From Membranipora membranacea (taxonomy: Eukaryota > Bryozoa > Gymnolaemata > Cheilostomatida > Membraniporidae): DNA of 64,000 nucleotides. Position numbers and translations under genes: made by a program. The stretch lies in the NCBI GenBank assembly GCA_914767715.1, contig OU612067.1:21796162-21860161 (forward strand). Direction: 5' to 3'. Shown one piece after another: positions 4,222 through 52,528 of the stretch (the stretch's first letter is position 1; every line of letters starts with the position of its first letter). The notes below the pieces were generated by a model that worked only from the letters and a program-made list of their open reading frames with translations, was not told the origin of the DNA and did no database searches.

Positions 4222-4225
4222 CCAG

Positions 4226-4695
4226 TGTCGGGAAATTCTATCTTGTCAGGATAGCCAGCATGGGCTTGACATAATTATTCCCGATCTCCAACTTGTTCTG
4301 ATGAACGCGTAAGGCTTAACGGCAACCTGCCAGTCGAAAAGTCTGTTTAAATCAAGGCTACCAGCCAGGCATAAAAATGTGTGGTTTATCAACTATACTA
4401 TGATTTTATTGTGTACTAACTATCTAACTAAAACTAACAGAGTTACAAAGATTTAATGTATAAATCAGTAAAAATGATCAGTGCGTTTAGTCTCGTCCGC
4501 TAGCAAGCATGATGTGTCAAGTTGTAAGAGGGAAGAGTGTAAGCTTGCTAAAAATAGTTACAGTCGTAGCATTAATAATGGATTATTATAACAGACAAAA
4601 CATGTGTAGGAATAGAATGTATGATTAGAATGTATGAATAGAATGTGTCCTCAGTGCTTAATATATATAACAGTCAAAGACTGAAATTCCCCACA
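4226..4695 (-). repeat. Left LTR (3' LTR of the minus-strand element)
   Basis: 470 bp, TGTCGGGAAATTC to CCCCACA on the plus strand. Aligns over its whole length with 8188-8657. Confidence 0.93.
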
Positions 4696-5217
4696 CTCTC
4701 CCACTAGATACAAATTAATTATGTTGGTAAATCGGAGCAAAACGAATTAATTATTTATCTCAAACTTTAAAAAAAGGGGAATTGTAAAAATCAGCTTAAA
4801 CATAGAATGTCTGTCAGCTCGTCGGCAGTTGGGTCGAGAGTAGCGATGTATCGGTGAATTGCTTCATCTGTGTTGGTAGGAGCCAGTGAGTTAGATGCAA
4901 GAGTTAGAGCTGCTGGTTTCACCTGACGGTAGATGTAGAAGTGTTGTTGGCGGCTGGAGGACTGAGATAAGCGTATTCTGTGTATATTCAGTGATAGATA
5001 TGCAATGGTATACAGCATACCTGTGCATAAGTGCAGATTAATACAATAATATAATATTTTGTTTGTCTTTTACATGCGTCCACGCTTTAATAAGTGTTAG
5101 TTTACAACATGTATTTTCTGGGTTCTCTTTATTATTAAAAATCACTACAGGTTAATAATTATCTAATTATAATATTGATGTGTAGCCTAATATATAATCG
5201 GCTAGATATTTTCACAA

Positions 5218-6347
5218 TCACCCAATGCCTGTATCCAGTGCGGTGATTATGTTATTTGTTGTTTCGTCATCTCCTATTGAGACAGATTGGCCTGTGTCAT
5301 CAGGCTTTCCTGTTATTTCTATAAGGTGTTTTATTGGTTTTGTGTCCAGTAAAGCCGGAATAGAATGATTAACCGACTTTGTTGGACAGATAAGTGAATC
5401 ACCTTGACAGAAAACATCGGAGTATTTTGTAAATAAATTTACTATTGCTCCTTTGTGGTCAGCTGATTTCATCCCTTGAGTAGTTGTGCTACAAAGCTCT
5501 TTCATGTGGTTTGGCACTATGCTGTCATAATGGTCACCCAGCTTTGAAGCTATACCCTTGCTTTGTTGTTCAATATTTTCACTTCGGCTCAAAACATCTC
5601 CAATGTTTACTAAATTAAATGCCTGTCCCATTGTATTTTGTGGCTTCATGATGTTGCCTGTTTTGTTGTTTACAAGCTGATCATCTTTTGATAGTGATAT
5701 GATATCAGCAGAAACAGTTCCGGCTCTGGTTTCATCCTCTACTACAATTTTATTCAGCCCACCTGGCTCCCACAGCTTCAATGCCACCAAAACATTTTCT
5801 GGCATTTTATGATTCATTTTAGTTCCTGTTACACCGCACATGCCTCTGGTATTATTACATAACTTTGTATGAATAGCCATCTCAGGTCCTACTGGGGTTA
5901 TTGTATCACGCATAACTTGGATATTGCTTACAAGCAAATCCCCTAATCTGCCAACACATAACAGATTTTTATTATTGATATACAGTGACGCTTTCTTGAA
6001 GCTTAGTGTACACCCGCTCGCTTTGAAAAACGACATTCCGAGTATAGCATCATGTGTAATTCTACTCACAATGAATTCCTCAACAAATTTCTCTCCTCGC
6101 ACTGAACATTGCAGCTTGATTTTCCCTATGAGGGGTAGTTTTGACCCATCTGCCATTACCCCAGATTTTTCCAGAGGCTCAATTTCAGATCTGAGAGATT
6201 TTGGGAGTCTATCATACACATGCCTTGATAATACAGATTTAGAACACCCAGAGTCAAGTAAATACTGTATACTCTTTCCACCAGCCTTGCCTGGCATATA
6301 ATAACAGGAATCCGACTCGTAATGACACAATTCATTACAGCTGACAA
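5218..6347 (-). CDS. Retropepsin-like aspartic protease domain of the LTR element
   Basis: An open frame of 370 aa. Near its N-terminus it has LLDSGCSKSVLS, the DSG active-site loop of retroviral-type proteases. About 70 residues on, it has ITHDAILGMSF, the second hydrophobic signature (A-I-L-G-M). The remaining 230 residues are low-similarity linker. They end in DTGIG and a stop where reverse transcriptase would normally begin. It follows the gag and zinc-knuckle frames, apparently in another frame, which implies frameshifting or decay. The polypeptide would process Gag if active. Confidence 0.75.
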
Positions 6348-6350
6348 CCT

Positions 6351-6638
6351 TTATGTCATTTTCCCACTGTTATTTTCACAGAGTCTTTCCTCAAGTATTT
6401 TTGATTCTGCTATTCTATCTCTTTCTACTAGGCTGGTGATGCTCCTCTGTCTACAGATTGAGCCAACCTCATCAGTTTGAGACACACTAGACTGGTCGGA
6501 AATTTTCCCAAATTTACTGCTTGGATCAGCTTTCGAAGCCTGATCACATTCACTTTCCGCAGTGTTCAATGGGGTTTGATTTCCATGCTCAGCACTAGGA
6601 TTTTTGTCCACTTTTTGATGGTTGCCCAACTTAGACAT
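6351..6638 (-). CDS. Linker open frame of the LTR element between zinc knuckle and protease
   Basis: 95 codons, Ser/Asp/Glu-rich (SSKFGKISDQSSVSQTDEVG), no recognisable fold. It opens upstream beyond its first ATG (VNSPATDEPNLLQEKAGVN precedes it). It is therefore probably part of one Gag-Pro precursor broken by frame changes, not a separate gene. Confidence 0.4.
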   Translation of the reverse strand: MSKLGNHQKVDKNPSAEHGNQTPLNTAESECDQASKADPSSKFGKISDQSSVSQTDEVGSICRQRSITSLVERDRIAESKILEERLCENNSGKMT

Positions 6639-6674
6639 ATTTACACCAGCCTTTTCTTGTAAAAGGTTAGGTTC

Positions 6675-7615
6675 ATCAGTAGCTGGTGAGTTTACTGAGA
6701 ACCTGTGGAGTTTACCTGATTTTCATTAGGACATTCCCTTGCCATATGATTTTCTGAGCCACATGAATAGCATGCTCGTTTTCTCTACCTAGTGTTTTGG
6801 ACACTGGCCAACTTTTCTACATTTTTTGTATTCCTATCCAATATCTCCATTATTTTTATAAGAATTTGCGTTTGTTTAGCTATTTCACTACTGGTGCTCT
6901 CAGTGACTTTAGCTTTGGGTTTATTTTGATAATCACTATGTGTTGAGTGCATACCTACAGTATTACAGTCAAAATCAACTTCACTTTCAAAGTCAGATTT
7001 TTCTGGATAGCTTACAACATTTATTTGCGGCCTTTGTCTGAGGTTGGAGCCAGCCTGAACATAATCATCTGAAGCCCGACATATTTCCGCTACAGTGTTG
7101 AGCTCTATTGTCATTAGATGTCTCAATAACTGACGATTTTCTATGCACCTGCGCACATTTTCTACGGCGATATCTTCTTGATGAGCAGCGCCCATGTTTG
7201 GATACGCAATTCTTACTAATTTTAGAATTTCTACTCCTAGTGAGTGAAACTTTTGACCTGGTTCTTTTCTTACAGTGGACAATTTGTCCCGAGCTTGCCT
7301 CTGTGTTAGACCAAACCTGGCTCTCAGGTTAACAAATACCGCTTCTACATTATCTCCTCTTGCACATTCTTGTGCTTGTTTTTCGAGACACAGTCTGATG
7401 TTTAAATGGGCTGCCTGGGGATTCCAGTTGTTGGCTTGGGCCACATCAGTGAATTTTTGAATGAATAATTCAATATCTTCACTTCCATCATACTGTGGCG
7501 GTTTAAAGTGGTCTCTCCCACCATTCGTTTGCCTGAAGGCATTTCGGAAGGCGTTTGCTAGATGGTCTGCTTCATCAGCCGGCTGTTGCCTGGCAGCATT
7601 ACCTCTGTTTGCCAT
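6675..7615 (-). CDS. Gag capsid followed by an amber codon and an in-frame CCHC zinc knuckle
   Basis: The first 276 codons (7615-6785) encode a Ty3-like capsid: a charged N-terminus, then FKPPQYDGSEDIELFIQKF and a helical region ending VQNTR. A TAG follows. The same frame then continues through ACYSCGSENHMAREC, a perfect CX2CX4HX4C RNA-binding knuckle, to a TAA near 6690. Either the TAG is a nonsense mutation or it is read through to add the knuckle. The knuckle normally binds the genomic RNA during particle assembly. Confidence 0.75.
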
Positions 7616-7654
7616 ATTTTTGTGCTAAATTATACTCTGAGTTTCATACAGCTA

Positions 7655-8110
7655 GTTCTCTGGTCTACTATTTTAGCAGAGCTGTGAGAGTTTTTCTTAG
7701 TATTACTGATTTGAATGTTGATATACCTCTTCGTGGTCTACTATTTTAGTAGCGCTGTGAGAGCTTGTATTGTATTAATAATTTGAAATGTTGATATACC
7801 TCTTTGCGGTCTACTATTTTAGTAGCGCTGTCAGAGTTTGTATAGTATTGATAGACTAAGGAAAAAGATATTTATGCCCAAAAAATTCTTAAAATAATTA
7901 TTTTCTCTGGTCTGGTCACTACAGAAGTTCTCTGGTCTACATTTTAGTAGAGCTGTGAGCGCAGCGACATTCTTTGACCAACAATAACGACAAAAAGCGT
8001 AAAGTATTTTGTTCACAAAAATATCTTGTAATAAATATTTGCTCTGGTCTGGTCACTACAAAAGTTCTTTGGTCTACATTTTAGAAGAGCTGGGAGCGTA
8101 ATGACATTCT
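7655..8110. repeat. Tandem repeats in the leader of the LTR element
   Basis: The phrase ggtctactattttag recurs at 7662, 7735 and 7809 (period about 73). A related ggtctacattttag recurs at 7933 and 8070. They lie between the primer-binding site and the gag start, in the untranslated leader. Confidence 0.8.
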
Positions 8111-8187
8111 TAGAACGGCAAGGAAAAGTCCTTTCAATAAATTTCCAGATTACCTACCTTACGCGTCCATCCCACTTCTGACACCAG

Positions 8188-8657
8188 TGTCGGGAAATTC
8201 TATCTTGTCAGGATAGCCAGCATGGGCTTGGCATAATTATTCCCGATCTCCAACTTGTTCTGATGAACGCGTAAGGCTTAACGGCAACCTGCCAGTCGAA
8301 AAGTCTGTTTAAATCAAGGCTACCAGCCAGGCATAAAAATGTGTGGTTTATCAACTATACTATGATTTTATTGTGTACTAACTATCTAACTAAAACTAAC
8401 AGAGTTACAAAGATTTAATGTATAAATCATTAAAAATGATCAGAGCGTTTAGTCTCTTCCGCTAGCAAACATGATTTGTCAAGTTGTAAGAGGGAAGAGT
8501 GTAAGCTTGCTAAAAATAGTTACAGTCGTAGCATTAATAAAGGATTATTATAACAGACAAAACATGTGTAGGAATAGAATGTATGATTAGAATGTATGAA
8601 TAGAATGTGTCCTCAGTGCTTAATATATATAACAGTCACAGACTGAAATTCTCCACA
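8188..8657 (-). repeat. Right LTR (5' LTR of the minus-strand element)
   Basis: 470 bp, pairs with 4226-4695. The tRNA-Leu primer-binding site lies immediately inside it at 8169-8186. Confidence 0.93.
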
Positions 8658-8805
8658 CCAGCTCTAAAAGGGGGTCAGCACTAGAAATCATACATAGAGC
8701 GCTGGACAGATTGATAATCTAGGATGCTTTGCAGTTTTTTCAGCTGCTGGAGATGTTTTTTGTCTTCATTGGAGAGGTATTCGTTGCCTGGATCAATTCC
8801 AAATG

Positions 8806-9372
8806 TTATTTTCTCCCCTCAGTAAAAAAAAAAGCAGCAGCAATAGAAGCTAACAAACACAAACAGGCCCATATGAAACTTGTTAAGAGCAGCGTTGACA
8901 ATTCTGCTTTATTACGAGGCATCGGATGGCTTTCATTACAGCCGGACTCTGGAGCGGCAGCGCAAATCATTCTCATGAGACTATCTTTTGTACGCTTAGA
9001 TTTTTGGAGAGGATCTGTACTGCTCATAACAGGAGGAAGAACAAGGTTCTTCTGAAGTGTATTCCGCGATTCTGGAGACTGATCATACCGGTCTCCCTCA
9101 TTCTTCTTCATGTCCATAACAGCATTTGTAACCATCTCATGTATGGTTGTCTTCCCATCAGCTTTAGCAAACTGTCTGGCTATGGCTCCAGTAAAAGCTC
9201 CTCTGACAGCCATCTTTCCGATCACTGTTGACATCAGTAGCAGTGTATGAGGCCTCTTAAATACAACGTGGTTCATCTCATTAGGATTAGCTGCCTTTGC
9301 ATCAAAATGGCTTGTGGAAGGTCCAGCTACTTGCGGAGGGTTGTAATTTTGGCAGGCCTGAATTATGGCAAT
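8806..9372 (-). CDS. Terminal exon: caspase p20 end, p10 half and membrane anchor
   Basis: 188 codons after an ATTGTAG acceptor. It begins [10 protein letters not shown] with the active-site cysteine at codon 7, as in caspases with QAC-x-G. The p10-like part follows. It then has a Lys/Arg-rich stretch ([14 protein letters not shown]) before a single transmembrane helix and the TEGRK terminus. Basic residues before the helix and only a few after it fit an N-cytosolic tail anchor. The enclosing gene is described at 8806-17680. Confidence 0.85.
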   Translation of the reverse strand: MAIIQACQNYNPPQVAGPSTSHFDAKAANPNEMNHVVFKRPHTLLLMSTVIGKMAVRGAFTGAIARQFAKADGKTTIHEMVTNAVMDMKKNEGDRYDQSPESRNTLQKNLVLPPVMSSTDPLQKSKRTKDSLMRMICAAAPESGCNESHPMPRNKAELSTLLLTSFIWACLCLLASIAAAFFFTEGRK

Positions 9373-12300
9373 CTACAATGTGTAATATTATATTGACTGA
9401 CTACAAGTATTTTGAAAGTATGATTTAGTGTGCAACCATAGTTACAATTTTATTTTGTTTGATAGTCAACGGATGGTGGTTCTTCGAATGAGAAATTATC
9501 ACATCATCAGCACATGCCACATATTAAACCATTTTTTGATCTCAGCTCGTTTGCTGCCGTTGAGTATTGAAAAATGAATACATACCATTGGGACTTGTTC
9601 AGACAACTTATTATCTAGTATCTGTAGAACATCAGTGATGGGCATATAGGAGCCATTGCAGCCATACAGCATTCCGGCTTTTCCATGGGTCATGAGGGAG
9701 ATGACAAGAAGGGAGATCCCTTGGGATGGAAGCTCATCAATTCTGTGACGCAGGTCTAATGCACTTTTCCATTCTATCTTCTGAGTCTCGCATCCTGCTG
9801 TGACTAGGCTGTCAGCCATCTTATTAGCTTCATCTTCAGCATCAGGCCTATTCTCGGTGTTGAAAAGCACCAGACCGTATCTCTTCATGTGATCTTGATG
9901 ATGTGGTATGATGTACTGGTCACTCTGAACAAACAGTTGATTGATGTCGTTTGCGTCTAGTTGATGTTTCTCTATGAGCTCCTTCAGTATCTGTGACTTG
10001 TCACCTGAGTAAAATTAGAATTCAAGTCAAAGAAATATAGACAACCTGCAGCTTTGCATTATGTTGTATATATTGCATTATACATGTATATTTAAACACT
10101 AATGTGACTTGTGAGATTGTCACACATTGAGTCGTATTTTAGCTGGTGTGGCTGATTGGCTATCCTCATAAATATGAATTGATGTACCCACAAAATATCT
10201 CTGCTAGCTGTGCCACTCGGTGACACATTACTGACTAACATGTGAGTTTATACAGAAGATTATAGTTGTAGCACATGACTGCGGACATCGGTTAAAATGT
10301 TAATCGTAACACGTATATCACTAGAATCAAATTAGCGGACTTTAAAAAAAAGTCATTGGTCATTGGTTCATTTGCTTGGTTTTCGAGTAGCTCCCTTTGT
10401 ACGGTCACACTATGATGATCAAAATTTCTCTAGTTTTATAAGTTTGAATCTGAAATTCATTCGGAAACTTACTTGATAAGACAAGCTTTGATATGTAGTC
10501 TTGTAGTTCAGTATGACCAGCCTCTGTTATGCTTGAACCTAAAATATTCGCAAAATTTCATTGATAATGAAAAAAGTTTTCCATGCACACTAAAAGCAGT
10601 GTCTGGGAGGGCTGCTGAAGATGGGTTCAAAGTAGGTTAGCAGCAACCATAGTGGCGCAGCACAGGGATATTGTGCTTAAAGTTCATTCTACAATAGCAT
10701 TTGCCTTTTCCATGTCACTAAAACACTTTACACTATGATAATACAATTTTTATGAGTTTTACATACATGGATACATAAGTGGTTGTGGAACAAGTCGGTT
10801 CTCTTTTTTCTCCACTTCCTTTCTGCAGACAAACTTCTCATATCCAGTATAGCTGGGAGCTAGTTCTCTAGAACTATCTGGAACATCCACTTGGTACCAA
10901 TCAGGATCAACAGCTGTTTGTGGGTCTAGTTTGTTGATTAGTAGGCAGTGAGAACAGTAGAATACACTCTCATAACGAACTCCTTTCCACACAGATTTGA
11001 GTTCGGTGGTGAGCTTTCTCAGGGTCGAAATCTGCTCTTCTCTTGCTTCACAGAGTCTTTTCTGAGGTGTCAGAGTGATTAGAGTGACACGCTTTTCACC
11101 TGCATTGTGAAGGAGGTGTTCGATTATCCCATTACTCTTGGTCACAGTAGCACCATTCTCACCTGCCTCTGGAAAGTTTGAAGGATTAGAATTCATGTCT
11201 AGATAGGTGGCAGTGATGAGGGAGAAGATGTAGCTGGGTATGGGTAGACCTCGTAGATGAAGATCGACCTTCAACGGCATCAGTTGATTGTACACTTCAG
11301 GGGCTGTTATTGTTCGGCTGGCAAAATACGGTACAATGTATTTCTGATTGCTTATTGCAGCATTTGAACCGCATAGATGCACAAGATGAAATGTTCTTAG
11401 GATTTCAATGGACACATCGGCAGGGAGTCGGGATTCTTGCTCTAAGAGGTGTAGAAGCAGAGGTGCATCCATCACTCCTGTGTCATTGAATGTGTCTATC
11501 ATCTCTTTGTATCTGCTCTTTTCTATGGTTTTTCCGTCAACAAGAGAGAATGGAATAAATTTATCTAGCCTTTTGTACATGGACTCCTCCAGTGTGTGGT
11601 TGTATAGGACTTCTATCACACTTGTTATGACTTTTGAGCGATGGAATATAAAGTTTGATAGCTTGTCTAGTCTCCTGAACCACATTATTTGACTTATTTC
11701 ATGAAGATACTCGAGAGTGACATGTCCTTTATCATCAGGAAATTCTTTCTCTATTTCAGACAGGGTGAGCATGGGCTTGTCAGAGTGTTGGACTAGCTTC
11801 TGTAGTATTCGATACCAGCTACCGGGAATCTCAGTGATTAATCCTGCACCAGCTGCTATGATAGCATTTTTCAGCTCGTCGATTTCAGGCTGTCCGGATG
11901 TCTTCGAGAAGTGATGGATGTCACAAGACCTTATCAGGACTTCTGAGGTGTTGGCGAAGCTGGTCATGGTAAAGATCGGGTTACTGTCATTTTTCAAGTT
12001 CTGATTGACATTATTTTCTGCTTGGATTATACGTTGGCGCAATTTCTCAGTGACTTTGAGTAGTTGATGAGTCGTCTGTTCAACCTTATCAGGTATACTG
12101 TCACAGTGAGTGAGGACTACTACAGGTCTCTTCAGTTGAGGACACGCAATGTAGAGGTGGGATAACCACTCAATACAAAGCTCTTGACAGGCAGATTCCT
12201 CATCTTTCTCTAAAGCTAATCTATCAAACTCAGCAATGTCTATCACTAGCAGCGGTACACATTTTGTCTTAAAAGTCAGTCTATAGGAAAATTGATAGAT

Positions 12301-15300
12301 CTTCTGGCCTCCGAAGTCAGTAAAGAGTATTTTTGATTTCTCATCAGTCTCCGCCTCGCTCATTTCAAAGACTTTAGTGGCAGCATCCAATTTCCCCTCA
12401 TCAGAATCGCGTTGTGTCAGCACCCTTTTGTTTGCTTGCACACTGTTAACAAGGCTTGTTTTACCAGCTCTGCTTTTCCCTATAACTGTGACAGGTATAA
12501 GTCTCTGATTACTGGCTTTCTCAATATGGAGGTCATGAATGTACTTTCTCACAGCTTCTACACCTTGCGTACAGACACCTAGTGGTGGAGATGTTAGAGA
12601 ATCACAGTTATCACACTTTACTTTTTTTAATGTTGTGATACTGAATAAGCTTTCGGGGATGGTTGTGAGAGATCTGTTAGACGCGATAACCAAAGACCTC
12701 AGATTAATCAGCTGGCTGATGCTGCAAAAGAACAGAAGATAAAGTGTATTGTGTGAGAACGTAAAAGTGGTCATCTGGTAAGTATCTTCTTCAGAGGGGA
12801 TAATGCTGGGAAGAGAGGGATTTGGCAAAGTATGCTGAATCGTTGGCCAAGTAGAACCTTCCTACAACTTCTTTATAGAAATAAAGGTGAATTGGATATA
12901 AGGTCCTTGAGTAAGACTAACAATGAGACGAAAACTCACTGTCGCGACTTAAAATAAATCATGGTGATAATGACTTATTCAAACTTATATTCAAATTTTA
13001 TCATAAATAAGCTGCATACTTGTAATGTATAAATTACCCACCTTTCTGGTAATGTTGATAGATCACAGTATGACACATCTAAGACCTTCAATGACCTCAT
13101 CATACCAATACTATCAGGTAATGTGTGTAGATTCTTATTACCTGATACATTTAACTTCTCTAGATCTGTCAGTGAGCCGATACTATAATATATATATAAA
13201 GATAAGTAAGACTAACAATGAGAAGAAAACTCACTGTCACAACTTAAAATAAATCATGGTGGTAATGACTTATTCAAACTTATATTCCAATTTTATCATA
13301 AATAAGCTGCATACTTATAATGTATAAATTACCCACCTCTCTGGTAATGCTGATAGATCACAGTACCGTACAGTTAAACTCTTTAATGACCTCATCATAC
13401 CTATACTATCAGGTAATGTGTGTAGATTCTTATTACCTAACACATCTAACGTCTCTAGAGCAGTCAGTGAGCCGATACTATAATATATATAAAGATAAGT
13501 AAGACTAACAATGAGACGAAAACTCACTGTCGCAACTTAAAATAAATCATGGTGGTAATGACTTATTCAAACTTATATTCCAATTTTATCATAAATAAGC
13601 TGCATACTTATAATGGATAAATTACCCACCTCTCTGGTAATGCTGATAGATTACAGTTTGACACAACTAAGACCTTCAATGACCTCATCATACCAATACT
13701 ATCAGGTAATGTGTGTAGATTCTTATTACCTAACACATCTAACGTCTCTAGAGCAGTCAGTGAGCCGATACTATAATATATATAAAGATAAATAAGACTA
13801 ACGATGAGAAAATAACTCATTGTCACATATTAAAATAAATCATGGTGGTAATGACTTATTTTAAACTTTAATTTAAATTTCATCATAAATAAGCTGCATA
13901 CTTATAATAGATAAATTACCCACCTTTCTGGTAATGCTGATAGATCACAGCCTGACACATTTAGGGTCTTCAATGACCTCATCATACCAATACTATCAGG
14001 TAATGTGTGTAGATTCTTATTCTCTGACACATCTAACGTCTCTAGAGCAGTCAGTGAGCCGATACTATAATATATATAAAGATAAGTAAGACTAACAATG
14101 AGACGAAAACTCACTGTCGCAACTTAAAATAAATCATGGTGGTAATGACTTATTCAAACTTATATTCCAATTTTATCATAAATAAGCTGCATACTTATAA
14201 TGTATAAATTACCCACCTTTCTGGTAATGCTGATAGATCACAGCCTGACACATTTAGGGTCTTCAATGACCTCATCATACCAATACTATCAGGTAATGTG
14301 TGTAGATTCTTATTACCGTACACATTTAACGCCTCTAGAGCTGTCAGTGAGCCGATACTATAATATATATAAAGATAAGTAAGACTAACAATGAGAAGAA
14401 AACTCACTGTCACATATTAAAATAAATCATGGTGGTAATGACTTATTCAAACTTATATTCCAATTTTATCATAAATAAGCTGCATACTTATAATGGATAA
14501 ATTACCCACCTTTCTGGTAATGCTGATAGATCACAGTGCCGCACAGTTAAACTCTTCAATGACCTCATCATACCAATACTATCAGGTAATGTGTGTAGAT
14601 TCTTATTACCGTACACATTTAACGTCTCTAGAGCTGTCAGTGAGCCGATACTATAATATATATAAAGATAAGTAAGACTAACAATGAGAAGATAACTCAT
14701 TGTCACATATTAAAATAAATCATGGTGGTAATGACTTATTCAAACTTATATTCCAATTTTATCATAAATAAGCTGCATACTTATAATGGATAAATTACCC
14801 ACCTTTCTGGTAATGCTGATAGATCACAGTGCCCCACAGTTAAACTCTTCAATGACCTCATCATACCTATACTATCAGGTAATGTGTGTAGATTCTTATT
14901 ACCTGATACATTTAACTTCTCTAGATCTGTCAGTGAGCCGATACTATAATATATATATAAAGATAAGTAAGACTAACAATGAGAAGAAAACTCACTGTCA
15001 CAACTTAAAATAAATCATGGTGGTAATGACTTATTCAAACTTATATTCCAATTTTATCATAAATAAGCTGCATACTTATAATGTATAAATTACCCACCTC
15101 TCTGGTAATGCTGATAGATCACAGTACAGCACAGTTAAACTCTTTAATGACCTCATCATACCTATACTATCAGGTAATGTGTGTAGATTCTTATGACCTA
15201 ACACATCTAACGTCTCTAGAGCAGTCAGTGAGCCGATACTATAATATATATAAAGATAAGTAAGACTAACAATGAGACGAAAACTCACTGTCACAACTTA

Positions 15301-17680
15301 AAATAAATCATGGTGGTAATGACTTATTCAAACTTATATTCCAATTTTATCATAAATAAGCTGCATACTTATAATGTATAAATTACCCACCTCTCTGGTA
15401 ATGCTGATAGATCACAGTACTGCACAGTTAAACTCTTTAATGACCTCATCATACCTATACTATCAGGTAATGTGTGTAGATTCTTATTACCTAACACATC
15501 TAACGTCTCTAGAGCAGTCAGTGAGCCGATACTATAATATATATAAAGATAAGTAAGACTAACAATGAGACGAAAACTCACTGTCGCAACTTAAAATAAA
15601 TCATGGTGGTAATGACTTATTCAAACTTATATTCCAATTTTATCATAAATAAGCTGCATACTTATAATGGATAAAAAACCCACCTTTCTGGTAATGCTGA
15701 TAGATCACAGTGCCACGCCCTTATCACCTTCAATGACCTCATCATACCAATACTATCAGGTAATGTGTGTAGATTCTTATTACCTGACACATATAACTCC
15801 TCTAGAGCAGTTAGTGAGCCCATACTATAATATATATAAAGATAAGTAAGACTAACAATGAGAAGAAAACTCACTGTCACAACTTAAAATAAATCATGAT
15901 GGTAATGACTTATTCAAACTTATATTCAAATTTCATCATAAATAAGCTGCATACTTATAATGTATAAATTACCCACCTTTCTGGTAATGTTGATAGATCA
16001 CAGTTCCACACAGATAAACTCTTCAATGACCTCATCATACCAATACTATCTGGTAATGTGTGTAGATTCTTATTACTGTACACTTTTAACTCCTCTAGAG
16101 CTGTCAGTGAGCCGATACTATAATATATATAAAGATAAGTAAGACTAACAATGAGAAGAAAACTCACTGTCGCAACTTAAAATAAATCATGGTGGTAATG
16201 ACTTATTCAAACTTATATTCCAATTTTATCATAAATAAGCTGCATACTTATAATGGATAAATTACCCACCTCTCTGGTAATGCTGATAGATCACAGTATG
16301 ACACAACTAAGACCTTCAATGACCTCATCATACATATACTATCAGGTAATGTGTGTAGATTCTTACTATTTGACACATTTAACTTCTCTAGAGCTGTCAG
16401 TGAGCAAAGACTGTAATATACAATAATAAAGGTGAGGGTAACTATTAGGATATATCTCATAATCACAATTTATATTAAATTATCCCTTCTTCATTTACGG
16501 TGTGTAGAAAAAATGCAAGGCTTAGAGGCCAGAGAGCAGTGCGCATTCTATGAAATCAATACACAAAACAAATATCGCACCACGAGTAGTGTGCTCATGT
16601 CAGAGCACAGCAGCACTTTGTGAAAACAAAGCGAACGTTGAGTAAGTGTGGTCATGTCAGTGAGTGCATAGTTAATTTTGGAAGATATAAGCTTTATAAA
16701 TATCGACACGATATTATCTTATAATGGGAATAACCACTTGTCAGTGCTGGGCGAAATAAATATAAATATCGATATTCATTTCCCGAATGAAATATCTGCA
16801 TCGAGTACATCGAACCAAGGAGTTAAAGACAAGGAGATGCAACAAAGACAGCTTCCTTGATTTTGAAGAACTACCCTAATTTAAACAACTATAAAGCTTT
16901 ACTTCAGAGTTTTCTCCCCTTGTGAGGAGGAGAGACAACTACCGACAGTGTGAAATTATGACATAAATATTACTGCCGGATACATTGTGAGAGATTATCT
17001 CAGTATTTGGAGTTTTGTGTTGATAAAACAGCTAGAGGAAAATTGGTCAAGAGTGAGGCGGTGTCATGGCTCAGTGGCTTCAAGACACAGCTGTCAGATC
17101 TGCAACCATGGAGGCTCGCACAAACTGTCAGATTTTAGCCAAAGACTCTTATAAAACTCGAACACTGTATCACACAATACTTATGCAAGGCATAATAAGT
17201 TTGTCATTGACGGTATCCATACATTTTCCAAATTTCAATTTCCCACCAAGCCCTCCTCTCATCTCCTGTTATCCCAGCAAGACATTTCCCATCAGGATGT
17301 TGCTTGCTATTTCAACAAGACATTTTCCCACTAACCCTTATCCCACTATTACTTCTTTCAAAGGCCGCGCCTTCAACTCAATGCTGGTAGCCTTTCTAAT
17401 TTTATGGTTATGTTTGATGTGAGACTTCCCCACAAACCAAATGCTTACAAAAAAACCTACCTCTGTAGCTGATGTTTGTCGGAGATCCTCTCGAGCCTGA
17501 GAGCTGTCAGATGAGGTACCAGCTGATCTAGATTAGGAGGGATATCACCGCGAATAACCATGTGTGAGATCTGACGGTCACAGGTAGCCGCTTCAAGTTC
17601 TGATAAGGTCATGGATCTGAACTCTTCATCTTTTATGTTATCAATTCCAGGCATTGCCATACCGTACCATACTCTGTAAC
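8806..17680 (-). CDS. LRR-Roc-COR-caspase tail-anchored protein (12 LRR exons, apparently intact)
   Basis: Exons on the minus strand: 17461-17680, twelve 141-nt LRR exons (16410 down to 13042), 10767-12721, 10473-10538, 9586-10004 and 8806-9372 (stop). All joins are in phase, about 1,640 codons. The large exon holds the Roc GTPase: P-loop GKSRAGKTS, switch [20 protein letters not shown] domain follows ([12 protein letters not shown], then [19 protein letters not shown]). The next exons hold a caspase: [10 protein letters not shown] with the catalytic His, QACQN with the catalytic Cys, and a p10-like half ([29 protein letters not shown]). The chain ends with a hydrophobic helix ([20 protein letters not shown]) and a short FFFTEGRK tail, so it is probably tail-anchored with the caspase in the cytosol. 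Exon 17461-17680 has a strong acceptor (CCCTTTCTCTAG), so an N-terminal exon lies further upstream. I infer a cell-death or immune receptor. No stop or frameshift seen. Confidence 0.85.
9586..10004 (-). CDS. Exon: linker and caspase p20 start
   Basis: 419 nt. It begins with about 45 residues of helical linker ([19 protein letters not shown]), possibly the end of a small helical domain. The caspase core follows: [20 protein letters not shown], a strand-helix unit, then [17 protein letters not shown] with the catalytic His. It ends SEQVPM at a GTATGT donor in phase 0. Confidence 0.85.
10767..12721 (-). CDS. Exon: last LRR, Roc GTPase and COR domain
   Basis: 1,955 nt, 651 codons without interruption. 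It opens with an LRR ([18 protein letters not shown]) and continues the phase of the array. Roc motifs G1 (GKSRAGKTS), G3 (DFGGQ) and a G4-like THCD are all present, so nucleotide binding is likely. The COR domain occupies roughly the second half. A Cys-rich end ([10 protein letters not shown]) precedes the donor. In Roco proteins COR dimerises and couples nucleotide state to the effector; here that would be the caspase. Confidence 0.88.
13042..16410 (-). repeat. Tandem array of twelve 141-nt LRR exons (293-bp units)
   Basis: Exon low ends are at 13042, 13337, 13630, 13924, 14217, 14510, 14803, 15098, 15391, 15684, 15977 and 16270. Each is 141 nt, enters and leaves in phase 2, and is separated by about 152 nt of almost identical intron. 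Each encodes two 23-24-residue LRRs with the fixed frame [17 protein letters not shown] and CDLSALPER. Variable residues cluster in the LxxLxVxx strands: second-repeat strands read SLTVRYC, VLVVSNC, TLNVSGC, SLTVRHC, SLTVGHC, SLTVLYC, SLTVQYC, VIRAWHC and SLSVWNC. The lengths and phases mean any number of units can be spliced in without a frame change. Confidence 0.93.
17461..17680 (-). CDS. Exon upstream of the LRR array, first LRR
   Basis: 220 nt between acceptor CTTTCTCTAG and donor GTAGGT. It reads [20 protein letters not shown], then [17 protein letters not shown], then an LRR start ([17 protein letters not shown]). A methionine at 17658-17660 could start translation. The open frame and strong acceptor above it argue for an earlier exon. 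It ends in phase 2, matching the array. Confidence 0.72.
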
Positions 17681-20365: not shown

Positions 20366-23122
20366 TTAATAGGATATAAAGTGCTTTGATAGTTGTTGTT
20401 TAAAATGAGTGAGTTTGGTTGCTGAGCGTATCTGAATTGGTAAAGAGTTAAAAGTTGTAGTGATTTTTTGTCTTAATTGATCAGTGTGATAATGTAATAG
20501 GTATCTGTCTCTAAAAAAGGTTTTAGAGCTAGCTGGAATAAAGCCTTCCAAAAGAAAGTCAGGTGCAATCAAATGCAAAATTTGGAAACCAAAAATACAG
20601 GTGAAATGACCAGCAAGGAGAGGAAAAGGAATCAGACCAAGAGATGTATGTAAATCTCTTGTATGTATTAGATGATATGGTATGTGGCTGACATTTGCTA
20701 TTAGGCGGAAAGCCCTCTTTTGGAGCAAGTATATTCTTTCAAGAATATATTGTGGTGATAGGTTGCCATATATGCGGATGCCATATATCATATGACAAAA
20801 GACATACTGGAAATAAAAGTTACGAGATGATTTACTATCTAGGAATGCCCTGCATTTCTGGAATAATGCCAAACTTTTGTTTATTTTGATGCAAATCTGG
20901 TCTACATGATCGTCCCATGTCAATGAGTCATTCAAAGTAAAACCAAGGAGTTTGGTATTGGCATTTCGGTTTAGTTTTTTATGGTTAATTTTTAGATCTA
21001 AATCTAGAGATGTGGCTCTATGAGAGGGTTGTACAAGCATATAGTGCGATTTTTTTATGTTTATCAACATCCTATTATTCCTACACCAACTTTCTATCAA
21101 GTGTAGATCAGTATCACATAAATCATTAAGTGTATCAAAGTTGTCAGATTTTGATATGAAAACTGTATCATCAGCGTAGGCAAATGCTTTGGAATGTAAT
21201 GTATAGGATAAAAGATCATTGACGTATATGAGGAATAAACTTGGTGCCAGAATTGAGCCTTGGGGGACACCAATGTCTATTGGAAGAATTTTTGAACTTT
21301 TTGCACCTTGTTGTATAGCTACAAATTGTGTCCTATCTGTTAGGAAAGATTTTATGAGAGAGTGCAGTTTGCCCGTTATACCATACATTGTCAATTTTTT
21401 CAGAAGAATTTTATGGTTGACGCAGTCAAAAGCTTTTTTGAAATCCAATAACATCATAGCAACAAAGTGACCATCTGATCTGGCTGACAAACAGTCAGAA
21501 ATGAGTTTGTGTAGGGAATCAACACAGGAATAACCTTCTCTAAATCCGCATTGTAATTTGTGAAGAAGTTTGTTTGTGGTGAGATATTTTTGAATTTGGG
21601 AATTCACATGTTTCTCAAAAATCTTAGATAGCACAGGAAGTATTGATATAGGGCGATAATTAGATGGATCTTTGATATCTCCACCCTTATGAATAGGAAT
21701 TACTCTTGCGGTTTTCCACTGTGAAGGAAATACACCCTCTATTAATGCTCTATTGAACATGTCAGTTACAATGTCGCATATGTAAGGCCATGTTTTCTTC
21801 AAAACCTTAACAGATATACCATCATGACCAGTTGCTTTATTGTCAGAAATGTTTTTTAAGTATTTGAAACAAATTTCTGGAGTAAAGCGAGTCAATTGAG
21901 AAAACGTTTGGGTTGTCACTGGTCTAATCATGTTATATTCATGGGAATCAGGGATGTCTTTGGTTATGGATTTTGCAATCGATGTAAAGTGTCTGTTCAA
22001 TTCATCAGGGGATAAACCACCGATATTGACTATCGGTGAAATTTTAGTTTGATTGATTCCTAAAGCTTCCCAAACAGGTTTGGTGTTATTTTTGTTATTT
22101 TTAATTTTATCTGAAATAACCGATTTTTTCTTCTTCTTAATCAAATTTGTAACATAATTGCGTTGAATTTTGTATTCTTCCCATTTGCCCTCTCTCTTCA
22201 ATCTATCACGCAAATGCATGTGTGATTTTACCTCATCATCTAACCATTTGGGCAGTTGAGCAGTTTTTACAAATCTTTTCTTGGTGATGACAAGTGTTTT
22301 GATTAATGAACTATAGGTGTCATTAAATCTTGCATACATACGGTCTACAGTATTCTCACACAATACATCATTAAAGTGACGACCTGAAAAAAGGTCACGT
22401 ATATTCTGGTTTGTAAATTTGGAATAGTCATTGAATTCAAATGATGTTCTTTTTGCTTTTACCTTTAATGCGGAAAATAAAATTTTAATGAAAACTAAGT
22501 AATGATCACTCATTCCATATTTTATAATTCCACTCTCTGACATATCTGAGGGCAGATTTGTGTATATGTGATCGATCAGGGTGCTGGATGTTTCTGTAAC
22601 TCTTGTTGGCTCCGAGATCAATTGACGGAAGGAAAAAGATTTAACAATATTCAACCACTTTCTGTTGCTTCTTTGTTCAAGGATGTTGATGTTAAAATCT
22701 CCAAGTATAATCATTTCATTATACAGTGAAAAAGCTTTTTCAAAGTATTCGTAAGCAAGATCATACCATGCGGACTTGGAGTTGGGAGGTCTGTATATAA
22801 ATGAGACTAAACAACTTTTATTTGTACTTGGCTTTACTTTGATAGTTATAGACTCAGGCATGCTATTGTCAAAATCTGCAAGATGTTCGAATTGCACGGA
22901 TTCATGTATGTAGACAATGAGACCACCACCGTAACCATATCCCCGATCTCTCCTAATCACCTGATAACCTGGCACCGCATAAATACCAACACCATCATGC
23001 TCATTCAAAAATGTTTCTGCTAATCCTAGAATCGCGAATTTACGTTGATGCAAAATTGATTTTATCTCCTCTATTTTGCTGGTGATTCCACGGACATTCA
23101 AAAATGCAAATTCAGAATTCAT
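20366..23122 (-). CDS. LINE ORF2: apurinic-type endonuclease and reverse transcriptase
   Basis: 918 aa. The N-terminal endonuclease has LGLAETFL, GYGGGLIVYI, ILGDFNINIL and SDHYLVF, which carry the expected acidic, Asn and His catalytic residues. The reverse transcriptase follows, with RPISILPVLSKIFEK, QCGFREGYS, MLLDFKKAFDCVNH, GVPQGSILAPSLFL and the YADD active site (AYADDTVFIS). There is no RNase H domain, which fits CR1/L2/Rex-like or some Jockey-superfamily elements. It nicks target DNA and primes reverse transcription there. Start codon overlaps the ORF1 stop as TAATG. Confidence 0.95.
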   Translation of the reverse strand: MNSEFAFLNVRGITSKIEEIKSILHQRKFAILGLAETFLNEHDGVGIYAVPGYQVIRRDRGYGYGGGLIVYIHESVQFEHLADFDNSMPESITIKVKPSTNKSCLVSFIYRPPNSKSAWYDLAYEYFEKAFSLYNEMIILGDFNINILEQRSNRKWLNIVKSFSFRQLISEPTRVTETSSTLIDHIYTNLPSDMSESGIIKYGMSDHYLVFIKILFSALKVKAKRTSFEFNDYSKFTNQNIRDLFSGRHFNDVLCENTVDRMYARFNDTYSSLIKTLVITKKRFVKTAQLPKWLDDEVKSHMHLRDRLKREGKWEEYKIQRNYVTNLIKKKKKSVISDKIKNNKNNTKPVWEALGINQTKISPIVNIGGLSPDELNRHFTSIAKSITKDIPDSHEYNMIRPVTTQTFSQLTRFTPEICFKYLKNISDNKATGHDGISVKVLKKTWPYICDIVTDMFNRALIEGVFPSQWKTARVIPIHKGGDIKDPSNYRPISILPVLSKIFEKHVNSQIQKYLTTNKLLHKLQCGFREGYSCVDSLHKLISDCLSARSDGHFVAMMLLDFKKAFDCVNHKILLKKLTMYGITGKLHSLIKSFLTDRTQFVAIQQGAKSSKILPIDIGVPQGSILAPSLFLIYVNDLLSYTLHSKAFAYADDTVFISKSDNFDTLNDLCDTDLHLIESWCRNNRMLINIKKSHYMLVQPSHRATSLDLDLKINHKKLNRNANTKLLGFTLNDSLTWDDHVDQICIKINKSLALFQKCRAFLDSKSSRNFYFQYVFCHMIYGIRIYGNLSPQYILERIYLLQKRAFRLIANVSHIPYHLIHTRDLHTSLGLIPFPLLAGHFTCIFGFQILHLIAPDFLLEGFIPASSKTFFRDRYLLHYHTDQLRQKITTTFNSLPIQIRSATKLTHFKQQLSKHFISY

Positions 23123-24660
23123 TATCTCATTCGCTCAAATTGACATTTAACACTTTGTGATTGGAGACAAATGCCATTTTTAATAGAAAAAAGAAAATCA
23201 TCATGAGAATGGAACTTAATTTTGAACATTCTCATTGGTTTGCCCTCCTTAAAAATTCTTTCTGACGTAGCATGAGGGTAGAGCACTTTTATATCATTTA
23301 TTACAGTGCTGTCCTCAGCATCTAGTGGGACACCTTTCAACATACCCATATTTTCTGTCAGGGACCTCGGGTCGATTGTTTGGCGTATACTTGATCCACC
23401 AAATAGATCAGTGTTCCATTTGCGTAGGATGTTGTTTCTTGTTTCTTGGTGGTTGAACTGTATCATAATTTTGGGTTTGTTTGTATTGAAGTTATATCTG
23501 GTAACCTTTTCTATTATGATTGGCCCAAAGGTTTTGTTGAGGGTGCGTCTGATGGTATCTTGGTTAAAGTTGCTGTAGGTCATGGAGTCCTTCTTAATAT
23601 CTATGACAAGATTGTCTATAGGGCGGAAACTGTTGTCTATTTTTTGTTCTTTTGGGGGTTGTGTTCTCATGCTGGTTCGATTGTTGTTGTTCGTTGAGGA
23701 AGTTGATGGCAGATTAAGTTGCTGATGATTATAGTTAGCCCAGTGTTGTGCTGATGCTGTTTGATTGTTGGGAGAAACTTTTTCACCTGGTGAGGAATTT
23801 GAATTGCATTCCAATTTACTTGTTAGATGTTTGTTGATGCTGGTTTCAAGTTGGTCGAATTGATGTTGTATTTGATCGGTTATTGGTTGTTGTTCAACAA
23901 GTTTCTGTATTAAAGTGCTTTGTTGTTTAACTTTTTTTTCTAGCTCCGAGATTTTGCTCATCATGACGCTGATGAGGCTTTGGATATTGCTGCATGATTC
24001 ACATGTGTTGCCTGATGTTCTTTGATGATTGTGAGAGCTGGTGCTTTCCATGGCAACTGATGTGCTGGAGCTTTGATTGGACGTGTAGCCGTTTTCCAGA
24101 CTTGGTAGTTGAACTTCTGCCGCATTCATGCCTTGCTCGGATGTAATGAATTCTTTACATTTCTGTTGAATGGTGGCATTCAATGCATTTATAGTATGTT
24201 CAGGAATGTCGTTGATAAGTTTAGTGTAGTGGTCAAGGAAAATATCTTTGTCCTTAATACCATTGACAAGTATGGTAGATGTTGTATTATAAAAGTTCGT
24301 AGTGTATAAAGATTTTTTTCCTTTCTTCTTGGTTTTAACTGTGACCACTACAGCGACTACAGTTGTTTTTGTTTGATCCCTGTTGGTCTGTAAAGAGGTG
24401 TAAAGTCCTTGCTCTTTTAACGAGGACTGGAAGTTAGCTTTGACAACCTCGTATGTTGCAGAATTGCACACCAGTACGATTTGAATGTTGTCAAGAGTAC
24501 CTTTGATTTCGATGCTGTTGTCTTGAGTTGTTGAGTCCAGCTTTTTTTGAAGTGCTCTGAGTTTGTTTAAATAATACGGCATTTCTTTTTTGTTTTCTTG
24601 CTGATCGTCATCTTGGTCATCTCGCTTCCGCTTTTTAGAACTTAAAGCACTGTCTTCCAT
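23122..24660 (-). CDS. LINE ORF1 protein, coiled coil
   Basis: 512 aa. A basic N-terminus (KKRKRDDQDDD) could act as a nuclear localisation signal. A coiled-coil segment around residues 222-280 (SVMMSKISELEKKVKQQ) would mediate oligomerisation. The C-terminal 150 residues may form a nucleic-acid-binding fold. No CCHC knuckle is visible. It acts as the RNA-binding chaperone of the element. Confidence 0.85.
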   Translation of the reverse strand: MEDSALSSKKRKRDDQDDDQQENKKEMPYYLNKLRALQKKLDSTTQDNSIEIKGTLDNIQIVLVCNSATYEVVKANFQSSLKEQGLYTSLQTNRDQTKTTVVAVVVTVKTKKKGKKSLYTTNFYNTTSTILVNGIKDKDIFLDHYTKLINDIPEHTINALNATIQQKCKEFITSEQGMNAAEVQLPSLENGYTSNQSSSTSVAMESTSSHNHQRTSGNTCESCSNIQSLISVMMSKISELEKKVKQQSTLIQKLVEQQPITDQIQHQFDQLETSINKHLTSKLECNSNSSPGEKVSPNNQTASAQHWANYNHQQLNLPSTSSTNNNNRTSMRTQPPKEQKIDNSFRPIDNLVIDIKKDSMTYSNFNQDTIRRTLNKTFGPIIIEKVTRYNFNTNKPKIMIQFNHQETRNNILRKWNTDLFGGSSIRQTIDPRSLTENMGMLKGVPLDAEDSTVINDIKVLYPHATSERIFKEGKPMRMFKIKFHSHDDFLFSIKNGICLQSQSVKCQFERMR

Positions 24661-24742
24661 ATGATATCCAGTGATTATTTACAATTTTTTAATCAAGAGA
24701 GAGAGAAATTTTCACAAGCAGCTTGTCAGCACGATGTCACGC

Positions 24743-43312: not shown

Positions 43313-46300
43313 AATACCCCCCCCCCCCCCAAAAAACAAAAACTAAGTTATATTTGCTTAAAATATCATTTGAGTTTCAGTGTTGCACCAGATAGACTTG
43401 AGTGTTCCTAAAGCAAAGTCAAACTGACTACGCTGTAGGTGAAGCATATATTCCTAGGTAACTCAGTAGAGCGTCCATTTCTCAAGATCATTATGGCCAA
43501 CAAGTATATTTATGTACATATCATACTGCTATTATATAACTTGCATATCTGTGTGTAAAACTTTGATAAAATTATTGATTGATTGATATTGATTGATTGA
43601 TTAGCTATCACAAAGATTAAATGTTGCAAATAAAGGATGCATATACTTTGTCATAAAAGGAGCTTGCTACTGGAGTATTGAACTTGCATTTTAAAAAGTA
43701 TCTCATTGACCATAATGCACATTTACCTCATGATCCATATTTGCCTGAGGAAACAGTCTACTCAAGAAATCTACTCGTGCACTTCCCGTTTGTTTGCTAA
43801 CTTACCTATATATTGATGTATTTTTTTTGTAGTTTCACAGCTGTACATAAGACAGAAGTGATTAAGAACACACTGGACCCCACATGGAGGGAGATGATGG
43901 TCAGTGTAGGTACTCTTTGTAATGGAGATAAAGCTAGGACACTCAAAGTAGAATGTTACGACTGGGATAGTGACGGAGGGTGTGTTAATTTGTCTGTGAA
44001 TACTTTAATTTGTCAATCAAATGTATAATTTAGATCTGCAAGAACAGAAAAAGTGTTTCAATGCTGCAATATGTCATACAGCATCATCATAGTAAATCAC
44101 AAAATTACGGTATTTGCTAAAACAGAGAGATGTTTTCTAACATCAGTTTACATACACTGGCCATATTTGAAGAAGAGGCTGTTTGGTGCTTCATTATTTT
44201 GGTTTGTTTAAATCTACACTTTGGTCAGGAATTCGTGGTTTCCTCTTCCAGATTATAGTTATTGAATCAGAATTAATAGTTTTCCTATCTCTATGTTGAT
44301 CAGAGTATGTTGCCTTGAAAGATTTCAGCGACAAGTTTAGATTTGATATTGTTTTTTTTTATGACAAAATATCCGATTGAACATCTTCTTCCTACTTGTT
44401 GTTTGCGTCACAGAGCGCTATAGGTAAATACTCTGTAAAAAATCCATCATAACAACACCCTCCAGTTAAAGTGCAAAACAAACGCTAATAGACTGTTTCT
44501 GAGCGTAAATTTGAGCCTACTTTCGGAGCTGTCCTCTCTCCATTTAGCTGATCAATTGTTTCCCTTGCTTTATAAATTCTTAGTATGATAATTTTAGTGA
44601 TTGTATTCCGCTCAGTGTTTTGTATGTGGTTTTCTTATCAAATTTGCAGCAGGTAATAGCATCTTATCATTTACTCTTGATAAGCTAAATGGGTATGTAT
44701 GGACCTTTTTAAAAGCGATGGATCAGTAAGTCTAGTATGCTACTGCCATCGTTCTGCACTCTGCAGTTTCAACTGATTGACCCTCATTTTAATATCTTAA
44801 TACAATAAGACGAGAGACTGATAACCTCGTCGCAAAACTCGAATAGAGTATACCTTGAACTGATTGTAGGTGCTGCGGGTAGTTTGGTTTTATGTTTGAA
44901 TTAAGATTGGCTCTTGATGCCCTACATTTAGTTGCCTCTCTCAGGGCAAAGCACAGTACAAACTAGTAGTATTACAGTAGGACCATTGCCCCGGCTGGGG
45001 GGAGGGGGTCGGACGGTGGGCAAGAGTCTGGGGGGCTCAGACTACCATTGAGTATAAGCAATAGCAAAATATCAAATATGGCTACATGTTATTAATTTCC
45101 TTCCTGTGTGGAACTTCTGATGGATCTACAATGCCACATATTGTGAGAACACCGGACTTCTCTATAATAAGTTGCCTTGTAGCTCCATCCTCCTGTCCTT
45201 TCTCATTATGGATCACTAATCTATGTATTGTATTTATCTCCCTCAGCCACGACTTGATAGGCGTTTTCCTCACCAACGTCAATGAGTTAGCAAAGCACAG
45301 TGTAAACTTTGAACTTGTGAACCCAAAGAAGACTAAGAAGAAGAAATATGTCAACTTTGGTGTGGTAAGATTCCAGCATCCATATTAGTCTACCTGCTTA
45401 GACGGCTCCGTTGCGAGTTAGTGGCATTACATTATCAACCACCCAATTGCCCTCAAGAGTTGTCCGCTCCTTGTATTGGATGGTTGATAATGTAATGCCA
45501 CTAACTCGCAACGGAGCTGTCTGAGCACTTAGACTACATCCATATAGTCATGTCTGTTTAAGATTGTAGCTGATCATTATGCAGACTTAAGAATTAAATA
45601 TTATTCAAGTAGGTTGTATAGAATTTGTAGAACTGCTGACCTGATGCTGTCAGTTTGGTGTTGATTTTCATACACGCCTGCAGACAATGTCCCCTCTTGC
45701 TCGCTATTTTCCCTCGTTAACCCGGGATAAAATTTTAAAATGATTGCAAAGTCTTCTTCCGGTTCAACCAACTACTCGGTTTGACTTTGACACAACAAGA
45801 TGACACAAAAATGCCTATTCGATGCCATAAATAAATCTTACATAATATGTTTGATATGGAGTATGGGCCTTACTGACTATAACCGAGTATGGGCCTTACT
45901 GACTATCACCGTCAGCTCACTCTTTCCCCAATAACATGGGCGTATTATGTCCATGTCATTGAGGACGCAGCAACCTGACGGTAATATTAAAGATATTGAA
46001 CTAACACTGGTTGTGTAACATTGAGAGAGTTTTTGATAGTTGTCAGTGAAACTTTCATCACCAACCTCTATTTTCTCTTCCATTCTGCTTGTAGATACAT
46101 GTAGACCATGCCATGGTAGAGAAAAGTTACACATGTTTAGACTACATACAATCTGGGTAAGATAATCATACTACTGGCTCCATCTCATCATCAAATATAT
46201 AATAATTGTGGTGTACCCAAAGACCAAAACATGTTATAGTCAGGCAGTAACTTATGATAAAGTTGTGTCAGATTTGCATGGTAAAAATATGCTCTACTTG

Positions 46301-51937: not shown

Positions 51938-52403
51938 AGGCTGTCAACAATGAAGGGAGTTCTTTGCTGTCAATATTTATTTATTAAGCCTGAGCAGGAT
52001 AAGCCAAGAAGATGAGGAACTTGGAGTTCTATGGAATATGCAAACCAAATATGAGTATGATACTATATGGCTATCTATATGTGCTTGAAAGTAATGATCT
52101 GATCTGATGATTGCAATGAACTCCTTAATAATGTAAGTACATGAGAGGTGCAAATCACCAATCCTCATGTGGACATGAAAAAATCCATTTTGTGATGTGA
52201 GTAGTCAGTAATAATTGTAACTACAGTAAATTCACCGGGCTTAGTCACATACATGTGACCAACCTTGGTGTTTTGTATTGGCCATATCAAGGATGAACCT
52301 GTTACTCCTTAGTCATATGTATGTGACTACACACATAGATTACATGATGATGATGATCAGAGTGAGTCACTGGAGCGATAATAATGTTCAATGTTGTGAT
52401 TGA

Positions 52404-52528
52404 CAATGATATTTATCCACCGGACTGTTGCAGAGGGTCACCTCCTTTGGAGCATAACTATAATATAGTTATGCTCCAAAGGAGGTGACCCTCTGCAACA
52501 GTCCGGTGGATAAATATCACTGTCATTG
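52404..52528. repeat. Near-perfect palindrome, about 60-bp arms
   Basis: caatgatatttatccaccgg at the left pairs with ccggtggataaatatcac.. at the right. The centre is aactataatatagtt, with essentially no loop. Confidence 0.92.

Follow-up and report, generated by a model that had tools for sequence, protein, structure and literature searches.

The window analysed here, a 64,000-nucleotide (nt) stretch of the genome of the bryozoan Membranipora membranacea, carries on its minus strand an array of 12 exons (13042–16410), each encoding two leucine-rich repeats (LRRs) of 24 and 23 residues. Every exon is exactly 141 nt long, has AG/GT boundaries and shares an identical phase with the others, and the intervening introns measure 152–154 nt, in agreement with the coordinates, equal length and phase given in an initial annotation of the window. 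Together with an upstream exon (exon 0) and four 3' exons, the array forms a predicted single open frame of 1,632 amino acids (aa) in the order exon 0, LRR array, Roc-COR, caspase. The exons of this gene model are as follows (A and F denote two further arrays of the same cluster, and a number after the letter a unit within them).

17461–17660, minus strand: predicted exon 0, running from its ATG up to the first splice donor, 66 aa and 2 nt; ATG at 17660, acceptor-like AG, GT donor, in-frame join to array exon 1
16270–16410, minus strand: array exon 1 (two LRRs), 141 nt, AG/GT, in frame
15977–16117, minus strand: array exon 2, 141 nt, AG/GT, in frame
15684–15824, minus strand: array exon 3, 141 nt, AG/GT, in frame
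15391–15531, minus strand: array exon 4, in frame; same DNA as A7 and A28
15098–15238, minus strand: array exon 5, 141 nt, AG/GT, in frame
14803–14943, minus strand: array exon 6, in frame; first half inside a 259-nt exact tract common to exons 11–12
14510–14650, minus strand: array exon 7, 141 nt, AG/GT, in frame
14217–14357, minus strand: array exon 8, in frame; an exact tract of 636 nt in common with array F begins here
13924–14064, minus strand: array exon 9, in frame; same DNA as F22
13630–13770, minus strand: array exon 10, in frame; same DNA as F20
13337–13477, minus strand: array exon 11, 141 nt, AG/GT, in frame
13042–13182, minus strand: array exon 12, in frame; same DNA as F24
10767–12721, minus strand: exon 13, last LRRs, Roc GTPase and COR (Pfam Roc, PDB 3dpu, AlphaFold2 and Foldseek)
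10473–10538, minus strand: exon 14, short linker of 22 aa, by frame; matches at 95–100% in A and E and at 67% in F
9586–10004, minus strand: exon 15, part of the caspase large subunit, containing THG (Peptidase_C14, caspase-2 match)
8806–9372, minus strand: exon 16, QACQN motif, small-subunit part, C-terminal hydrophobic stretch and stop (frame, Peptidase_C14, caspase match)

The domain content of the predicted protein was assessed by profile, sequence and structure comparison. The LRR region matched Pfam LRR at 5.6e-87. Exon 13 matched Pfam Roc (1.7e-6) and the sequence of PDB 3dpu (1.1e-8), and it contains a P-loop, GKSRAGKT, and a DFGGQ motif. An AlphaFold2 model of this exon made without an alignment had a predicted local distance difference test (pLDDT) score of 33.5; we used instead a model built with 39 relatives (pLDDT 84.6), for which the best Foldseek match was the Roco structure 6hlu (2.6e-17), with 3dpu and LRRK structures also recovered. 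Exons 14–16, when joined, matched Peptidase_C14 at 1.6e-15, and THG and QACQN motifs occur in the caspase part, which matches caspase-2 (3.6e-4) and caspase-8 chains. The gene therefore specifies LRRs N-terminal to a Roc with its motifs, then COR, and a C14 domain with the His-Gly and Cys motifs, and by this predicted architecture its product is a Roco protein. No NACHT or NB-ARC domain appeared in a Pfam scan of the three parts of the protein at E values up to 1. Roco proteins are cytosolic, inspection of exon 0 by eye revealed no signal peptide, and the predicted protein is probably cytosolic as well. Exon 16 of the window gene has a hydrophobic stretch at the C-terminus, and none is seen where the corresponding exon ends in A or E; we therefore do not claim a membrane anchor, which is uncertain.

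In order to see where the 12 units differ, we set the LRR register, which matches with LRR chains of known structure support, and ranked the 46 codons of the exon by variability. Positions 3, 5, 7 and 8 of the LxxLxLxx motif are solvent-exposed and form the concave strand face of an LRR; in the two LRRs of each exon they correspond to codons 9, 11, 13, 14, 33, 35, 37 and 38. The eight most variable codons coincide exactly with these eight, for which the chance is 1/C(46,8) = 3.8e-9 if codons are exchangeable. Position 2, often also counted as exposed, shows little variation, and codons 10, 12, 34 and 36, which lie between the variable ones, are near-constant at the protein level. The residue pairs that precede the conserved Cys are SY, WN, WH, QY, LY, GH, RH, SG, SG, SN, RY and SY, and so include every pair listed initially, with SY in addition. 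The variable strand described at that time is indeed that of the second LRR; the description was incomplete, as each exon has two LRRs and both vary.

Measured as mean pairwise difference, the exposed codons (0.404) stand apart from the scaffold (0.046) and the introns (0.042), which are as near-identical as had been reported, with the entire exon at 0.107. The minimum number of changes is 32 at 24 exposed sites, 21 at 117 scaffold sites and 22 at 125 intron sites, a density at exposed sites that differs from that of introns with a binomial p of 8e-13 and from that of the scaffold with p of 2e-12. The proportion of nonsynonymous differences (pN) is 0.44 at exposed codons and 0.024 in the scaffold, where the proportion of synonymous differences (pS) is 0.12; the variable codons thus exceed both the intron and the synonymous divergence that the initial annotation had named as the yardsticks for its proposal of diversifying selection. 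Nonsynonymous events at exposed codons are also denser than all synonymous events in the exon (p 2e-4), and the ratio of nonsynonymous to synonymous steps (N:S) is 28:6 at exposed codons vs 11:10 in the scaffold (Fisher p 0.031). Units 1 and 10 differ at 14 exon sites and one intron site, and units 4, 5 and 11 differ from one another only at codons 15, 36 and 37. Our tests of selection consist of pN/pS, step counts and densities rather than a HyPhy-type codon model, and the case that they make rests on a nonsynonymous density greater than synonymous and intron densities, together with the exact placement of the changes.

To find related arrays we searched the genome with a 22-nt array pattern, allowing two or fewer mismatches, and obtained 175 matches (0 with the reversed pattern). 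All those with 0 or 1 mismatch lie on the window's own contig within the stretches we examined, which hold 106 of the 175; the other 69, each with two mismatches, lie outside these stretches, and more relatives therefore exist. A scan with an exon profile identified 110 units in six arrays across about 310 kb of the contig (21.741–22.045 Mb), with 44 units in A, 12 in B (the window), 12 in C, three in D, 15 in E and 24 in F. Array A, at 21741453–21754193, would encode a predicted 88 LRRs and contains an internal duplication block in which an exact 1,005-nt tract links units 4–8 with units 25–29. A version of exon 0 adjoins all six arrays (85–100% match); its presence there, with both the ATG and the GT donor, supports the prediction of exon 0, and coding may nevertheless extend further 5'. 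The complete set of exon 0, array, Roc-COR, linker and caspase exons is present at A, B, E and F, and the QAC motif could be read in each of these. A diverged and older relative, locus X, lies near 31.5 Mb (31495785–31511364) and has 11 full units and one partial unit of two-LRR exons of 138–141 nt with long introns, an exon 0 that matches at 53%, and a partial caspase small subunit; no Roc-COR was found in the 26 kb read there. Locus X is perhaps a relic, or perhaps an LRR-caspase gene without the GTPase.

The cluster provides further arrays in which to replicate the placement of variation. With the eight codons fixed beforehand from array B, the overlap with the top eight codons of each other array was 8 for A, 7 for C, 5 for D (three units), 8 for E and 7 for F. 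All eight codons ranked on top in the pool of C, D and E, whose 30 unique exons include no exon of B, in A and F after removal of the exons of B (46 exons), and in the full set of 80 unique exons that lie outside B. Across 88 unique exons, pN was 0.425 at exposed codons and 0.041 in the scaffold, scaffold pS was 0.129, and N:S was 55:11 at exposed codons vs 53:25 in the scaffold (one-sided p 0.026). Among 108 units there are 42 surface types of the first LRR and 35 of the second, in 73 combinations.

Several observations weigh against reading this pattern as selection on the surface of a functional receptor family. In the window array, 28 of the 34 minimal steps at exposed codons change the amino acid, which is not above the 70–76% expected without selection, and the departure from neutrality there is therefore one of change density and not of N:S ratio; over the 88 exons, 55:11 exceeds an expectation of 0.73 with a p of 0.035, and the expectation rises to 0.78 without transition bias. 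Counted minimally, synonymous steps too reach about double the density at exposed codons (1.96 vs 0.92 per site). Scaffold synonymous diversity (0.12–0.13) is greater than intron diversity within B (0.042), so that the intron by itself is too lenient a yardstick, and the units are related and recombining, so that the p-values are guides. At locus X the codon ranking is mixed, with 14, 38, 35 and 37 high and 16, 43, 27, 2 and 40 high too. The COR is weak by sequence, as COR-A in exon 13 scored 0.068 in Pfam, under the cut-off. Finally, the 30 kb around array C contained no more of the Roc-COR exon than its first 68 residues, and the 30 kb around array D none of it.

The first two of these points invite explanations other than selection for change. 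Relaxed constraint, under which exposed residues simply vary freely and the scaffold is kept in place, would fit an exposed-codon N:S near the neutral value in B and the fact that folding does not need exposed LRR residues. We nevertheless consider it quite unlikely, as free sites cannot exceed the neutral rate and exposed pN (0.425–0.44) is about 3.3–3.7 times scaffold pS and 5–10 times the introns. Targeted hypermutation, with a mutator directed at the strand codons and selection in a secondary role, would account for the density of synonymous as well as nonsynonymous steps at exposed codons and for pairs such as units 1 and 10; against it, all six kinds of change occur in the window array (AG 11, GT 10, AT 7, CT 7, AC 6, CG 6) rather than a single deaminase- or adenine-directed class, the near-constant codons between those hit would require selection or codon-exact targeting, and N:S is higher at exposed than at scaffold codons both in B and over the 88 exons. 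We regard such a mutator as very unlikely, and targeting of a deaminase type or like that of diversity-generating retroelements was dropped on the mutation spectrum of B.

A further alternative is that the arrays are a minisatellite-like expansion of LRR exons without function, or a decaying gene family. Tandem Repeats Finder (TRF) indeed reports the window array as a 12-copy tandem repeat, arrays C and D have the look of incomplete loci, and X that of a decayed one. However, all 110 exons of the six arrays are open, with no stop or frameshift; 108 are 141 nt and two are 147 nt long; and splice sites are preserved, with 110 AG acceptors, 109 GT donors and one GC donor. Moreover, scaffold pN/pS is 0.2–0.3, and in A, B, E and F the Roc-COR exon has an open frame, with pN/pS of 0.34–0.60. 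Absence of function is, on these grounds, hardly credible.

The arrays also bear marks of exchange, within and between loci. Within B, an exact tract of 259 nt that runs from codon 37 of exon 5 to codon 25 of exon 6, and so breaks between the two LRRs of an exon, recurs from exon 11 to exon 12, and a further exact tract of 252 nt is common to units 4 and 11. Exact tracts shared between arrays reach 636 nt (B–F), 462 nt (A–F) and 261 nt (A–B), whereas those for pairs involving C, D or E are at most 144 nt; six exon sequences are identical between arrays. Of 28 inter-array tracts of at least 200 nt, the 22 longest were read by eye, and four of these fall in flanking introns instead of the array. 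We infer exchange from these exact tracts because a site-order recombination test, like the pairwise homoplasy index, gave inconsistent results in B (p 0.44 with all sites; at non-exposed sites, 0.34 in 11 units and 0.0034 in 12). Paralogous arrays of three to 44 units, together with the copied tracts, fit the earlier suggestion that equal phase and length leave copy number free to change. Synonymous divergence of the Roc-COR exon is 4–5% among A, B and E and 26% between F and each of these, whereas 600 nt of 5' intron differ by 1.0–3.3% among A, B and F and by 4.7–6.0% between these and C, D and E. Locus F therefore joins an A/B-like front to a distinct signalling back, for which a crossover in or near the array would be the simplest cause. 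It follows that the genes of the cluster are young duplicates whose arrays hold more variation than their flanks.

Established at the level of sequence, then, are the architecture, the copy-number differences among paralogs, the concave-strand variation, the constraint on the scaffold and the recent exchange of exon tracts. We think it likely that these genes are a bryozoan germline multigene family of intracellular LRR-Roco-caspase receptors whose concave face is diversified by selection and by exchange of exons within and between loci, a reading that supports the diversifying selection on a recognition surface proposed initially: the variation falls at exposed codons, and because the array heads a Roc-COR-caspase protein, a role as an immune or death receptor would suit it. 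An N-terminal LRR solenoid assembled from tandem two-LRR exons would bind a variable target through its concave face; binding would release or switch Roc-COR; the caspase on the same chain would then be clustered or activated and would cut, leading to death or inflammation of the cell; and selection favouring novel specificities, along with recombination between interchangeable exons, would keep the surface changing. A pathogen target, for example a viral one, is favoured over cell-surface allorecognition because exon 0 has no evident signal peptide and Roco proteins reside in the cytosol, while allorecognition is worth testing given colonial life.

Two variants retain a recognition gene and alter how its diversity is deployed. 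Splicing might select subsets of the array and so generate somatic or isoform diversity, and the common phase would keep any subset in frame; yet a solenoid of 24 to 88 LRRs reads naturally as continuous, and we consider alternative exons unlikely. Possible, though doubtful, is a cluster-wide cassette system in which a pool of more than 110 two-LRR exons feeds several LRR-Roco-caspase receptors, the incomplete C and D act as possible donors, and array crossovers re-pair fronts with different signalling backs, in the service of colonial allorecognition or even somatic diversification.

Protein relatives were sought with several parts of the gene. Exon 13 returned 45 matches, P0001–P0039 being 27–67% identical to it, and the named proteins among these 39 are three from the bryozoan Watersipora subatra (P0035, P0037 and P0038), which are Roc-COR relatives at 32% identity. 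P0038 combines Roc-COR with a caspase, as the window gene does. In P0037 a two-LRR unit of 46 aa occurs twice, and four of six differences fall at strand positions 5, 7 and 8, a hint that this mode of variation may be wider among bryozoans. Unlike the window gene, the Watersipora relatives show at most two alike units and no long array. A search with residues 640–1560 of the predicted frame found no relatives, and one with the LRR region found 4,558 general LRR proteins, with no sister array among the best 120. Viral contigs yielded one distant locus at 26% identity, and a search of bacterial genomes found no relatives.

Other elements surround the gene in the window. An element of long terminal repeat (LTR) type at 4222–8658, with direct terminal repeats at 4222–4696 and 8184–8658 that are 98.1% identical, encloses gag/protease-like minus-strand frames, and its edge lies about 150 bp beyond the stop codon of the receptor gene. 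Upstream of the gene lies an element of long interspersed nuclear element (LINE) type (20366–24678), with a frame for endonuclease and reverse transcriptase. The corresponding regions at A, D and F continue uninterrupted where it stands, and the element therefore looks like a locus-specific insertion. From 24.7 to 64 kb, where 70 of 78 other frames of at least 75 aa were scanned with Pfam (Copine in two, C2 in one, NSRP1_N in one), the frames appear to be ordinary neighbours. This region also holds a tandem duplication of about 4 kb at 43417–51650 (43417–47566 and 47605–51650, 90–92% identity), large near-perfect palindromic repeats at 52401–52975, and a 363-nt repeat of 100% identity (57760–58122 and 63638–64000, up to the window end), perhaps the terminal repeats of a young element.

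Among known systems, the window gene shares with Roco proteins (C. tepidum Roco, LRRK1/2, and MFHAS1 as named for the Watersipora hits) the LRR-Roc-COR order, the motifs and the Roco fold, and differs from them in having a C-terminal caspase instead of a kinase and an LRR part that is an exon array of variable copy number. Plant NB-LRR resistance proteins and the variable lymphocyte receptors (VLRs) of lampreys carry diversity on the xxLxLxx face of their LRRs, as does the window gene. To our knowledge, plant NB-LRR proteins have no near-identical exon array, which the window gene has, and it lacks their NB-ARC. Lamprey VLRs, whether secreted or anchored, are put together somatically out of donor cassettes; the window gene has a complete predicted frame in the germline, and this germline sequence shows no sign of extracellular export or somatic assembly.

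The closest parallel in strategy comes from the het-d/het-e (HNWD) genes of Podospora anserina, in which WD repeats on NACHT proteins undergo concerted exchange within and between loci, four positions per WD40 repeat on the interaction face are under selection, and 69 units display 55 surface combinations (PMC1805685, PMC4986451). Both systems have near-identical tandem repeats with four diverse positions per repeat on an interaction face, exchange of repeats within and between loci, varying copy number (here between paralogs in one assembly) and a death-related effector, and the 73 combinations in 108 bryozoan units compare with 55 in 69. The bryozoan repeat is an LRR, the switch is Roc-COR and not NACHT/NB-ARC, the effector is a C-terminal caspase, the units are exons with introns, the host is an animal, and incompatibility is a feature of het-d/het-e. 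The survey of fungal NLR proteins reports WD, ANK and TPR repeats and no LRR (PMC1805685, PMC4986451). The bryozoan family resembles the fungal class of high internal conservation in its alike repeats with concerted exchange and in its diversity at interaction-face positions, and departs from it in having LRRs with Roc-COR rather than WD/ANK/TPR repeats on NACHT/NB-ARC; by analogy, it would work like these NLRs without being a member of the class.

A limited literature search, which does not establish absence from print, found no description of an LRR-Roco-caspase array family. If the proposed reading is true, the family would show in an animal, on an LRR and Roco-caspase chain, the strategy of shuffling repeats known from fungal receptors of non-self. 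Bryozoa, a colonial phylum, would gain a definite candidate for a locus polymorphic in immunity or allorecognition, in which eight codons of each exon may be typed in populations.

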